Source of the DNA: Polyangiaceae bacterium | GTDB lineage: Bacteria; Myxococcota_A; Polyangia; Polyangiales; Polyangiaceae | NCBI GenBank assembly: GCA_029261965.1 | Contig: JAJDAH010000424.1 | Coordinates: forward strand, 1-46,050 | Length of the DNA stretch: 46,050 bases | Direction: 5' to 3' | In this document: one piece after another, positions 1 to 4,515 of the stretch | Position numbering within the stretch: position 1 is the stretch's first letter | Layout of the letters: each line of letters begins with the position of its first letter | The notes under the pieces: generated by a model | Databases searched by the model: none | Seen by the model: the letters and a program-made list of their open reading frames with translations, nothing else | Told to the model about the DNA's origin: nothing | Translations under genes and position numbers: made by a program

Positions 1-1500
1 TCCGCCGCAGTCGGTGCAGTCGGTGCCGCTGGTGCAAAGGAAGGGCTCGTCGCACGTGAAGTTGTTGGCGGTGCCGCACGAATCGTCGCAGAGCGGTGCG
101 CCGCCCATGCCCGCGCCACCACTCATGCCGCCCATGCCGCCGGTGCCACCCGTGCCTCCGGTACCGCCGGTACCGCCCGTGCCGCCGGTGCCACCCGTGC
201 CTCCGGTCGCGCCACCGGTGCCACCCGTGCCTCCGGTCGCGCCGCCGGTGCCACCCGTGCCTCCGATGCCGCCGGTTCCGCCCGTGCCCGCAGAGATGCA
301 GTTGCCGGTGTCGAAGTTACAGAACCCATCACAGAAGAGCGTTCCTATCGGGCGAATGCCGCCGGTGACGCTGTCGCAGTCCTCGAAGTTGAGGTCGCTC
401 CCATCGCACTGCTCGCCGGGATCCGCGACGCCATCACCACAGAAACCGCCTCCGCCGCCGGTGCCGCCGGTGCCCGCCGAGAAGCAACTGCTGGTGTCGA
501 AGGTGCAGGAACCGGTGCAGAACAGCTGCCCCAACGGCAGCACCCCGCCGGTGACGCTGTCGCAGTCCTCGAAGTTGAGGTCGCCGCCGTCACACTGCTC
601 GCCGAAGTCGACGAAGCCGTTACCGCAATCTCCACCCGCGCCGCCGGCACCGCCCATACCTCCGGGACAGTTCGGGCCACCGACACCGGGAATGCCCGGC
701 TCCACCTCCGCTTGACGCGGCCGACATTCGGCCTCGCCGCCACTACCTGGTCCGAGGCCGAAGAAAATCCGGCACTCCTCGTTCGTTTCGCACCCAACGT
801 CGCGGCAGGCACCGTCGATGCACTTTCGGAAGTTGTAGGCCTCCGCGTTGTCGCATTCGATGTCGGCTTTGCACCGCAGGCGGCACTCGTTGCCGTCGCA
901 GAAGGCCAGAACGTTGTTCAGCGACGCGATGCACTCGCGGTCCGTCGAGCAACCGACGTCCACGCACTCGGAATTTTGGCACTGCGAGAACGCGGGACAA
1001 TCCGCGTCTCTCTGGCATTCACCGACACACCGGGCGTCGCGACAGACCTGGGAGCCGGAGCACTGCGCGTCGCATGCGCATTCGACACAGCGACCGTCGC
1101 TACAGACGGTGCCCGGATCGCACGGGTTCGACGAGTCGCACATTTGCCGGCACCGGTCGCCCTCGCAGGTGCTAGTGCACCGGCACAGCTGATCGCGCTG
1201 GTCACACGCGAACGTGTCCCCCATCGCGCACTGGTCCTCGAGGGACTGGCAGATGGGCGGCGGGTCCGGGCAACAGTCGGCGTTCGAGCGGCATTGCACC
1301 TGGGCGCATTCGTTACCGGTCGGCTTGAGGTCGAATTCCCTGTCAGTGCAGGCACCTGCGAGACATGCCAGGCCACTCGCGCAATTATCGCGCGTCTCGC
1401 ACGACTCTCCGCGTTGCCCTTTTTTTGCTCCGGAGCAGGCTGCGAACGAGCCGGCCAGGATGAGAACTGCGCTAAGTATCCAAGTAGGTCTTATTTTCAA
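1..1500 (-). CDS. Cys-rich lipoprotein with duplicated repeat and Gly/Thr linker (3' end outside window)
   Basis: Five hundred codons are open to the left edge and no stop is reached, so the C-terminus is missing. The start is TTG at 1500: the next upstream in-frame codon of note is a TGA and no ATG or GTG lies between, and a GGGGG tract sits just upstream. Residues 1-22 form a lipoprotein signal ending SFAAC, so Cys22 is the likely lipidated residue. About residues 25-260 are packed with regularly spaced cysteines. Two homologous repeats follow at about 288-345 and 350-402, each carrying GEQCDG, DLNFEDCD and SVTGG, reminiscent of the DUF4215 type of myxobacterial surface repeat. A GGTGG linker occupies about 402-466, then more Cys-rich sequence. 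A surface-anchored protein is likely; its ligand is unknown. The antisense strand shows a misleading Pro-rich frame. Confidence 0.85.
   Translation of the reverse strand, partial: MKIRPTWILSAVLILAGSFAACSGAKKGQRGESCETRDNCASGLACLAGACTDREFDLKPTGNECAQVQCRSNADCCPDPPPICQSLEDQCAMGDTFACDQRDQLCRCTSTCEGDRCRQMCDSSNPCDPGTVCSDGRCVECACDAQCSGSQVCRDARCVGECQRDADCPAFSQCQNSECVDVGCSTDRECIASLNNVLAFCDGNECRLRCKADIECDNAEAYNFRKCIDGACRDVGCETNEECRIFFGLGPGSGGEAECRPRQAEVEPGIPGVGGPNCPGGMGGAGGAGGDCGNGFVDFGEQCDGGDLNFEDCDSVTGGVLPLGQLFCTGSCTFDTSSCFSAGTGGTGGGGGFCGDGVADPGEQCDGSDLNFEDCDSVTGGIRPIGTLFCDGFCNFDTGNCISAGTGGTGGIGGTGGTGGATGGTGGTGGATGGTGGTGGTGGTGGTGGTGGTGGMGGMSGGAGMGGAPLCDDSCGTANNFTCDEPFLCTSGTDCTDCGG
108..296 (-). repeat. 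GGT-type low-complexity linker tract
   Basis: Degenerate 9-base units, read on the minus strand as Gly-Gly-Thr with occasional Ala or Ile, repeat through this stretch inside the Cys-rich lipoprotein gene. The tract probably spaces the C-terminal Cys-rich part away from the repeats. It is slippage-prone and should vary in length between strains. Confidence 0.8.
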
Positions 1501-1584
1501 GGTAACCCCCGAATCACCCGAGTCTTGCCGCCGACGGCAGCAATGTCAAACCCGGCAACCGGGCCCGACCGAGAAGAGCGTGCC

Positions 1585-2139
1585 ATGAATATTTTCGAGC
1601 ATCTGGGCCATCAGCACCGAATCATCGGCACGACCCTCGACGCCCTGCACGGCTACGCGGCGAAGGTCGAAGCGGGAGTCGATCCGAGCCATCACGACCT
1701 CACGCGCTTCGTTCTCTTTTTTCGTGAGTACGCGCACCAGCGACACCGTGACGCCGAAGAGGAAGTTTTGTTTCCGCTTTTGACGAAACACGGCTTCTCG
1801 ATGACCGTCGGCCCGCTGGCCCACATCCGGCAACAACACGATGAAGAAGGCCTGCTCCTGGTACGGCTCATGAAGGTCGCCGCGCGACGCAACCTCTGGT
1901 CTCGAGATGAAGCCTCGGAGCTGTGCGCCGTCGCTCGCGAAATCGTGCATTTCGAGCGAGTCCACCTCGAAAAAGAAAACGAGCTCCTGTTCCCCAAGGC
2001 CCAAGAGCAGCTCACCGACGAGGAGCTGGAGCAGGCGGCCAAGGGGCTCGCCAAGCTGGAAAAAAAGCACGGCGACGCGGCGTGGCTCGAAAAACTCGCG
2101 AGCGAGCTCATCGCCGACTACGTGCCGAAAAAAGACTGA
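1585..2139 (+). CDS. Hemerythrin HHE-domain protein
   Basis: A 184-residue, largely helical protein rich in His and Glu. It shows the hemerythrin-type cation-binding pattern: an N-terminal EHLGHQH, then YAHQRHRDAEEEVLFP, HIRQQHDEE and HFERVHLEKENELLFP. These motifs supply the His and carboxylate ligands of a di-iron site in the HHE family (PF01814). Family members bind oxygen or sense or scavenge iron, oxygen and nitric oxide species; which applies here cannot be told. No signal peptide, so cytoplasmic. ATG at 1585 is chosen because GAAGAG precedes it at good spacing; ATG at 1543 would add 14 residues with no conserved motif. It diverges from the lipoprotein gene starting at 1500, and its 3' end lies 6 bases from the convergent lipoprotein gene at 2146. 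Confidence 0.9.
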   Translation: MNIFEHLGHQHRIIGTTLDALHGYAAKVEAGVDPSHHDLTRFVLFFREYAHQRHRDAEEEVLFPLLTKHGFSMTVGPLAHIRQQHDEEGLLLVRLMKVAARRNLWSRDEASELCAVAREIVHFERVHLEKENELLFPKAQEQLTDEELEQAAKGLAKLEKKHGDAAWLEKLASELIADYVPKKD

Positions 2140-2897: not shown

Positions 2898-3422
2898 CTA
2901 GAGCGCGGTCCGAAGAAGCCAGCTCGACAGCTCTTCGGGATCCGGGCGCGGGTTCATGCTCGCCACGCGTTTCCACTCTCGGGGCGGCGTCTCGCATTCG
3001 TTCGGCTCCACCAACGTCCAGTACGGGATGGCTCGGGCGCCGAGCTCGAGACGCACCGCATCCAGATCTCGTCCGTCGCCGATGTTCATCACGACAGGCT
3101 CGACCCGCGACAGGGCCTCGTCGACATCGGCATCTATCGCGCTCTTCACCTTCTGGCACTGCTCACACCACGGCGCGGAAAACTCCACCAGCAACAGTCG
3201 CTCGGCGTTCCGGGCACGCTCACAAGCGCGCCTGAGCTCGGCGCGGGCGGCCACATCGCCGAGCGCACGCGGCCAGTCGCCAACGAAGGCATGTCGACCC
3301 GGCTTCCAAGGCTCGAACGCGACGACTACGGCGGCGCTGAGCGCCACCAGAGTAACTCCGATGCCCAGACGCCGTGCTACGACCTTCAGCAAGGGGTCAC
3401 GATTGTAGCGACCTAAATCCAA
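2898..3422 (-). CDS. Membrane-anchored thioredoxin-like protein
   Basis: From the TTG at 3422 this gives 174 residues. A single hydrophobic helix (about 20-36, after basic residues) should anchor the protein with the C-terminal domain outside the cytoplasm. The thioredoxin fold is recognised by EFSAPWCEQCQ (Cys86 and Cys89 forming CxxC) and by the cis-proline region AIPYW (Pro133). The CEQC active site and export suggest a periplasmic disulfide reductant or a cytochrome c/DsbD-like helper. The start is uncertain: TTG 3422 has GGGG 7 bases upstream, TTG 3392 would give a shorter N-terminus, and GTG 3446 would overlap the divergent gene at 3425. All keep the membrane helix. No ATG is available near the true N-terminus. 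Confidence 0.75.
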   Translation of the reverse strand: MDLGRYNRDPLLKVVARRLGIGVTLVALSAAVVVAFEPWKPGRHAFVGDWPRALGDVAARAELRRACERARNAERLLLVEFSAPWCEQCQKVKSAIDADVDEALSRVEPVVMNIGDGRDLDAVRLELGARAIPYWTLVEPNECETPPREWKRVASMNPRPDPEELSSWLLRTAL

Positions 3423-3424
3423 CG

Positions 3425-3946
3425 ATGCGCCCCAGTTTTCTTGCACTCGTCGCGCTAGGCCTCTGCTCCGCCTGCGAAAAACCGACCGATGCGCCCACGG
3501 CGGCCTCGAAGGGCGCATCAGCGGTACCCGACCCGCCGCGTCCTTCTCCTCAAAGTCGAGCCAGCGCAGTGGTCGGCAAGCTCCACCCGGCGTGCGCCGC
3601 GATGACGATGCACGAATCCGATCCGCTGATGCGCTGGGGGGGGGCGTTCGCCGTACATCGCGGGGGCACCGTGCTCGTGATCCCTCACGAATCCCGAAAA
3701 GCCGCCGAGGCATGGATCGACGAGCACCGTTTGCGAGGAACCGAGATGACCGCCTGCAGTTTGGCCATCGTCTGGTGGACCCCGGGGGTGGACGAAGCCA
3801 AGGCCTTCGTCGATTCCGTCCCGAAAGTAGTCGGGATCATCGAGGCGGAGCATTTCGCACCCATCGATGAGGATTCCGCGGCGGCGCTCTGCAAAAGCGG
3901 CCGACTCGCCGCCGTTCATTGCCGAGATCTCGCGACACGGCGCTGA
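3425..3946 (+). CDS. Small putative lipoprotein of unknown function
   Basis: A 173-residue protein. The N-terminus is a short hydrophobic signal ending CSAC, so Cys17 may be lipidated, although Cys at -3 makes a weak lipobox. A Ser/Pro/Ala-rich linker runs to about residue 55. The remaining domain begins near HPACAAMTMHESDP and contains alternating strand and helix-like segments (GGTVLVIPHESRKAAEAW, ACSLAIVWWTPGVDEAKAF). I do not recognise the family. Coding sequence includes a run of nine G at 3636-3644 (Trp-Gly-Gly). The gene starts divergently within a few bases of the thioredoxin-like gene. No clear ribosome binding site precedes the ATG. Confidence 0.75.
   Translation: MRPSFLALVALGLCSACEKPTDAPTAASKGASAVPDPPRPSPQSRASAVVGKLHPACAAMTMHESDPLMRWGGAFAVHRGGTVLVIPHESRKAAEAWIDEHRLRGTEMTACSLAIVWWTPGVDEAKAFVDSVPKVVGIIEAEHFAPIDEDSAAALCKSGRLAAVHCRDLATRR
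3636..3644. repeat. Homopolymeric G9 tract inside a coding region
   Basis: Nine consecutive G bases encode the end of a Trp codon, two Gly codons and the start of an Ala codon in the small lipoprotein gene. A one-base slip would shift the frame in the middle of the protein. As written the frame stays open to a sensible stop at 3946. Confidence 0.95.
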
Positions 3947-4002: not shown

Positions 4003-4515
4003 GTGGACGAAGAAGCGTGGCGCAAGTGCAGCACTTGCAAAAATCCGATCGCACACTCGATCGTTTTCTACGAGTGCAGCGTCTCGACGTGTAACCGAAA
4101 GCGCCTACCGCTCTTTTTCTGTTCCGTCGAATGTTGGGACGCCCACGTTCCGATGATGCGCCACCGAGACGCCTGGGCGATCGAGAAAACGTCGCCCAGC
4201 AAGAGCGACGTCGCCCGCGAAACCGAGGCGGCCGACGCGGCAGCGAAAAAGAAGGAAGCCCCGCGACGAATCGTCACCGAGGCGGCGACGAACGGCGACG
4301 TGCCACAGGACGTGCTCATCATCGCGTCCAAGCTCAAGTCGTACATCAAAGCACGAAGCGGCATGAACACGTCCGACGGCGTCATGCGCGCTCTTAGCGA
4401 TCACGTTCGCCAGATCTGCAACGAGGCCATCCGCAACGCCGCGCGCGACGACCGAAAAACCGTGCTCGACCGAGACGTGGCGAAGGTGGCGCGAAGCGGC
4501 CCCCCCGGGGGCTAG
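4003..4515 (+). CDS. MYND-like zinc finger plus histone-fold protein
   Basis: A 170-residue protein from GTG 4003. Residues 9-54 hold eight potential zinc ligands: Cys9, Cys12, Cys25, Cys30, Cys40, Cys44, His48 and His54, spaced like the cross-brace MYND/HIT zinc fingers (note FFCSVECWDAH). A charged Ala/Lys-rich linker spans about 62-98. Residues about 100-163 look like a histone fold: helix VLIIASKLKSYIKA, loop, a long central helix from SDGVMRAL to RNAARDD, then RKTVLDRDV, which parallels the archaeal histone ending RKTVKAEDI. Archaeal and some bacterial histone-fold proteins bind or wrap DNA; here the zinc finger could recruit a protein partner. Function is inferred. The Ser/Thr kinase gene follows 117 bases downstream on the same strand. 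Confidence 0.82.
   Translation: MDEEAWRKCSTCKNPIAHSIVFYECSVSTCNRKRLPLFFCSVECWDAHVPMMRHRDAWAIEKTSPSKSDVARETEAADAAAKKKEAPRRIVTEAATNGDVPQDVLIIASKLKSYIKARSGMNTSDGVMRALSDHVRQICNEAIRNAARDDRKTVLDRDVAKVARSGPPGG

Follow-up and report, generated by a model that had tools for sequence, protein, structure and literature searches.

The window analysed here is a stretch of 46,050 nucleotides, and the original prediction placed in it, at 4003-4515, a 170-residue protein in which a zinc finger is fused to a histone fold. The open reading frame, read from GTG 4003, is indeed found at these positions (Table 1); the frame stays open upstream of the GTG (TTG 3919), and the starts chosen for the homologues lie mostly just before the first CxxC. 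The gene has a GC content by codon position of 0.59/0.49/0.79 and, compared with three relatives, 39-48 codons differ with the residue left unchanged; hence we consider the gene to be real. Its product combines a zinc finger with a histone fold, the two being separated by a variable linker, and is a clear member of the ZZ histones, a family named in 2024 and thus already known. Two MAGs, L001 (Myxococcales) and L002 (Polyangiaceae), supply its closest named relatives and make a myxobacterial source of the window probable. Conservation was assessed on an alignment of 46 homologues, the window protein (L006) included, from loci that were hand-chosen (best matches plus odd ones) and form a non-random set; the alignment omits the partial or variant loci L058-L063, L075 and L076 and the duplicate or cut loci L003, L021 and L028. 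Further upstream in the window, the frame 712-2139 (+) carries a hemerythrin-like domain in its C-terminal part (PF01814, 1.2e-10), and the true start of this gene is probably well inside the frame.

Table 1. Positions of the ZZ histone gene and of its parts in the window.
Feature	Position	Strand	Basis
ZZ histone gene	4003..4515	+	GTG start, 170 aa, stop TAG; homologues in other genomes
N-terminal zinc finger, residues 5-65	4015..4197	+	Invariant ligands; predicted alone, pLDDT 85.6
Variable linker, residues 66-101	4198..4305	+	Predicted helix 67-84, then low-confidence stretch; low column information
Basic RRIV motif in linker, residues 88-91	4264..4275	+	R88 in 41/46; loose pattern 40/46
C-terminal histone fold, residues 103-165	4309..4497	+	phmmer, family profile, AlphaFold2, Foldseek, VIA-align
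RKTVLDRD, L2 DNA-contact loop and RD clamp (R151, D158)	4453..4476	+	R151, T153, D158 46/46; HBb R51, K52, T53, R57, D58

The identity of the histone half is certain. Searched with phmmer against solved structures, the window protein matches the bacterial histone HBb (8cmp, 1.4e-8; 8fvx, also HBb, 1.6e-8) and HLp (9qt0, 1.1e-4), and a profile of 45 homologues reaches 2.3e-17 for HBb and 3.4e-10 for HLp. The histone models of Pfam and NCBIfam also match the window protein, at scores under their cut-offs, and PF00808 is found in 5 of 45 family members at E up to 0.01. The AlphaFold2 model has a mean pLDDT of 88.4 and a pTM of 0.51, a value which leaves the modelled placement of the finger and histone halves relative to each other loose. 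When the whole model was submitted to Foldseek, HBb took the first five places (prob 1.00, rmsd 1.0-1.1 Å, E 2.7e-3 to 4.9e-3), the best entry with a TMt of 0.87, an rmsd of 1.0 Å and an E of 2.7e-3; no match was obtained at E 0.001, though the sequence matches are significant. VIA-align gave Z 8.6 for 8fvx, with an rmsd of 1.4 over 63 residues, and Z 7.7 for HLp. HBb is thus the best match by sequence, profile and fold, and the confident model does hold the three-helix histone fold, so that the refuting outcome named in the original prediction, a confident structure lacking this fold, did not occur. The archaeal nucleosomal histone HMfB was rejected as nearest relative, with a profile value of 0.0071 against the 2.3e-17 of HBb and a Z of 7.0 against 8.6. 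Furthermore, the C-terminal half had been described as helix-strand-helix, which has to be corrected, as it is predicted to be helix-helix-helix (108-119, 125-148, 156-165).

Ten residues have been described as important for DNA binding by HBb, namely N22, R57, S9, T53, T8, S24, K10, K12, K52 and K16 (Hu et al. 2024, PMC11317129). According to the phmmer alignment, in which the window residue number is the HBb number plus 100, nine of the ten are identical in the window protein (S109, K110, K112, K116, N122, S124, K152, T153 and R157), the sole mismatch being T8, replaced by A108. The stretch RKTVLDRDV, which had been singled out as a histone element, is one: its residues 151-158 are the counterpart of the L2 loop and of the RD clamp in HBb, and the RxTxxxxD motif of the clamp (R151, T153, D158) is present in all 46 homologues. 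Among the other positions, K112 and R157 are conserved in 45 of the 46, T123 in 44, S124 in 43, S109 in 42, N122 in 34 and K152 in 32. Moreover, R136 is invariant in the 46 ZZ histones whereas the aligned position of HBb is a Glu, and judging by the alignment this residue is a possible mark of ZZ histones.

The eight Cys/His ligands reported for the N-terminal part (C9, C12, C25, C30, C40, C44, H48 and H54) are all invariant in the 46 homologues, and likewise in 50 of 50 finger domains. They fall into a C4 set (C9, C12, C40, C44) and a C2H2 set (C25, C30, H48, H54), and a regular expression for the ligand pattern had no match in 20,000 shuffles of the window protein. In the alignment of the 46 homologues, columns of the finger (7-62) carry on average 3.19 bits of information, those of the histone (100-161) 3.00 and those of the linker (63-99) 1.77; the finger is conserved as strongly as the histone fold and therefore probably has a function separate from it. 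Modelled by itself from 50 sequences, the finger reaches a pLDDT of 85.6 and a pTM of 0.64. With this isolated finger as query, Foldseek ranks the ZZ domain of p62 first (prob 0.97, E 0.057), followed by other ZZ domains, NosL and SMYD2, all at E 0.7 and above. With VIA-align, Z does not exceed 4.5 and ribosomal zinc proteins, p62 ZZ and NosL are tied, so that the likeness to the eukaryotic ZZ domains (p62/SQSTM1, HERC2, p300) is shared with ribosomal and other zinc folds. A ZZ-like fold is hence the best single answer for the modelled finger, weakly indicated and not firm, and the Pfam ZZ model is not among the matches of the window protein and family members. The fusion of zinc finger and histone fold, as first proposed, therefore stands; as for the MYND/HIT-like spacing suggested for the finger, the best fold match is, weakly, a ZZ domain rather than MYND or HIT. 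Neither of these two families is matched in Pfam at E 1 or better, and SMYD2 and Bcd1, which we take to represent the MYND and the HIT family respectively, are weakly present in the fold lists.

The ZZ histones were described by Schwab et al. 2024 (PMC11390915) as proteins that start with a ZZ finger, built on one C4 and one C2H2 site, and end in a bacterial-dimer-like histone, with D0LYE7 of Haliangium ochraceum as an example. Both features are found here, the N-terminal C4 and C2H2 finger as well as the bacterial-dimer-like alpha3 histone fold, and for seven of the eight ligands the published numbers equal the window numbers plus 11. The eighth is printed as C53 (profile C43) in the Fig. 4 legend of that article, where the window equivalent would be C55; in each of the 46 homologues this ligand follows C40 at a distance of four residues and, going by the printed numbers, C53 should probably read C55. 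Compared with HBb (Bd0055 of Bdellovibrio bacteriovorus), the window protein shares the histone fold, the RD clamp and the DNA-contact residues listed above. However, the PDB chains of HBb, with their 64-66 residues, consist of the histone fold alone, whereas the window protein adds an N-terminal zinc finger and thus, unlike the bacterial dimer histones of the HBb type, is not a stand-alone histone fold. HLp of Leptospira perolatii, a face-to-face histone described as tetrameric (PMC12701072), has the bacterial histone fold in common, but it is a 65-residue chain without zinc finger and its sequence match is weaker than that of HBb.

In B. bacteriovorus, Bd3044 is reported as a longer and less abundant second histone (Hocher et al. 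2023, PMC10627809), and we infer that it is the ZZ histone of this species, for which low expression is stated (PMC11390915). Deletion of Bd0055 and Bd3044 is called lethal in a review (PMC11318664), and the sections of Hocher et al. (PMC10627809) that we cite speak of deletion for bd0055 alone. As far as the literature search extended, in sources partly available, it yielded no experiment on the role of the second domain of ZZ histones and no measurement of DNA binding, zinc binding or dimerisation for any of them.

Among 377 genomes of the phylum, the finger profile matched in at least 134 and the histone profile in at least 143; among the matches listed, both domains occur in at least 121 genomes, the finger only in 13 and the histone only in 22. 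These tallies are lower bounds, at most the best 9 or 16 candidates per genome having been covered. In three of the 121 genomes (G311, G345 and G375) finger and histone lie on separate contigs, and part of the finger-only cases fall at the end of a contig or have a frame interrupted by stops. Single homologues from outside the phylum of the window are exemplified by L003-L005. When histones were searched in 20 hand-picked genomes, nine were without a histone match and all nine carry the finger. Of the 121 genomes that carry finger and histone, at least 42 show more than one histone match, not counting two tandem cases. In the genome of the window no second histone was found: profile A2, applied to all 131 candidates, found the ZZ histone only, the next match being at E 0.09. 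This profile is not blind to distant histones, since it recovered them elsewhere among the genomes searched, with values of 1e-8 to 1e-14. The Pfam histone model is a weak test for a second histone, as even the ZZ histone is under its cut-off.

The finger also occurs without a histone half. Four loci of three genera (L058-L061, in G148, G364, G305 and G317; family f5) encode a finger only, of 66-68 residues, which ends just past a conserved Ala-Pro at the linker start. The flanks fetched for these loci gave no histone, nor did the rest of the four genomes among the best 150 of 176-231 candidates, G364 being 84% complete. A tree built from 67 finger domains (18 stand-alone, 49 fused) groups the four together (support 0.81) among the fused fingers, which fits loss of the histone half; in these four the histone half has apparently been lost and the finger kept. 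The remaining 14 stand-alone fingers (L095-L107 and L062) form a separate group with a support of 0.953. The fetched loci exclude additional stand-alone or second fingers of G331, G334, G045 and G222.

In 13 of the 14 loci of this separate group, an ORF for a redoxin with a thioredoxin fold lies within ~2.2 kb. Seven loci have it upstream of the finger and on its strand, the other six downstream and on the opposite strand. Two of the thirteen redoxins were recognised by Pfam and the other eleven through phmmer with those two. Other neighbours are shared too in these loci, so the association could be largely one of descent with shared gene order. The redoxin link was rejected for the fused form, a similar ORF being found in one of 46 loci (L052, E 6e-6, 6.8 kb away). 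In the window, a thioredoxin-like protein is encoded just upstream of the ZZ histone gene at 2898-3713 (-), with a Pfam Thioredoxin match of 2.1e-5 and an APWCEQC motif, and it differs from the redoxins next to the stand-alone fingers. Its CxxC motif is present in the window only, one of the 46 loci, and in none of the other 45; this protein was thus discarded as a partner of the ZZ histone and its position taken as coincidence.

The 46 loci used for the neighbourhood comparison are not the 46 aligned homologues, as they include the window, L003, L058-L062, L063, L075 and L076; they too were hand-chosen, their flanks are of unequal length and some stop at contig ends. Among them there is no widely common neighbour family (ORFs of at least 90 aa, blastp 1e-12, five or more loci). 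A conserved operon was rejected, several neighbours being common only to L038, L039, L040, L042 and L044, and most other neighbour families are ORFs overlapping the ZZ histone gene on the opposite strand, which we take as shadows. The original prediction also drew attention to a Ser/Thr kinase next to the gene. The kinase frame lies 117 bases downstream, but the two genes form no conserved unit: related kinase ORFs (E up to 1e-12) occur in the flanks of 10 of the 45 other loci only, at varied positions, the distance between their nearest edge and the midpoint of the finger ORF ranging from ~0.3 to 5.2 kb, and the genome of the window has at least 153 kinase matches (best 150 of 211 candidates). 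A kinase partnership was rejected on these grounds, although in L055 a kinase frame is found directly upstream. Across the 46 loci, conserved neighbours thus name no partner of the finger.

Taken together, we favour, with a probability of roughly 0.62, that the ZZ histone is a DNA-binding and DNA-bending histone dimer whose finger serves as a docking module for a non-histone partner. The histone folds would pair to give a protein dimer, which would bind DNA across the minor groove with no sequence preference and bend it, like HBb. The two zinc fingers of the dimer, carried on flexible linkers, would then dock a conserved non-histone partner of the cell, so that the protein would act as a DNA-tethered adaptor and not as a bulk chromatin protein. 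A non-histone partner is favoured because the finger is kept in the nine genomes in which no histone was found. In such a protein the RRIV-like motif of the linker, going by its sequence, would possibly be a DNA arm or a docking peptide. ZZ histones matter as bacterial histones with a second domain, and the present comparison makes the role of this domain testable.

A rather doubtful alternative is that the finger is a second DNA-contact module, the protein being a compact nucleoid-associated protein without recruiting role. Indeed, the N-terminal part with the finger has a positive net charge in 43 of the 46 homologues, four basic finger residues are conserved (K13 in 42, R32 in 41, R34 in 40 and R55 in 46) and the linker adds its basic RRIV-like motif, in the loose pattern; on such features the finger itself could bind DNA. 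Nevertheless, the best solved fold for the finger, weakly matched, is p62 ZZ, a peptide-binding domain, and the low expression given for the ZZ histone of B. bacteriovorus (PMC11390915) also speaks against this role. It is just as tentative that the finger is an independent bacterial module, found on its own near a redoxin gene and here attached to a histone, which would carry redox- or partner-sensing to DNA; if true, this would be bacterial chromatin signalling without the reading of histone tails. Less probable still is a histone fold that, TAF-like, only dimerises or builds a complex without contacting DNA. Eukaryotic complexes do have histone folds without DNA roles (PMC10627809), and the low abundance reported for the B. 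bacteriovorus protein (PMC11390915) would agree with it, but few positions of the family are as conserved as its DNA-contact residues, with R151, T153 and D158 invariant and R157 and K112 close to it.

The chromatin-like recruiter first proposed is unlikely in the form that would read the tails of other histones, and a finger reading their N-terminal tails, as eukaryotic ZZ reads H3, is the most improbable reading: the ZZ resemblance (from Foldseek and from PMC11390915) and the genomes with several histone matches would suit it, but no second histone was found in the genome of the window, the finger is present in the nine genomes without histone match, and Schwab et al. (PMC11390915) state that ZZ histones do not conserve the pocket residues of the eukaryotic domains and consider tail binding unlikely. 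The conservation of the finger, its presence in genomes in which no histone was found and the stand-alone relative near a redoxin gene all point away from histone-tail reading, whereas the docking of a non-histone partner remains our preferred reading.

The new side results are the finger-only genomes, the stand-alone group with a redoxin gene nearby in 13 of its 14 loci and a form with a finger and two tandem histone folds. The latter is encoded at L063:5980-6735 (+, G110) and in L113 (G120, a 254-residue frame), where the finger is followed by two histone folds in one chain; the portions of PMC11390915 and PMC13088155 covered by our search make no mention of it. Separate histones with basic N-terminal tails were also observed in L108, L109, L110 and L114, ending in RATVRPHDL, RSTVRPYDL or RGTVRPHDL. 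They look like face-to-face histones, and three of the four are in genomes which have a stand-alone finger too (G311, G345 and G375).
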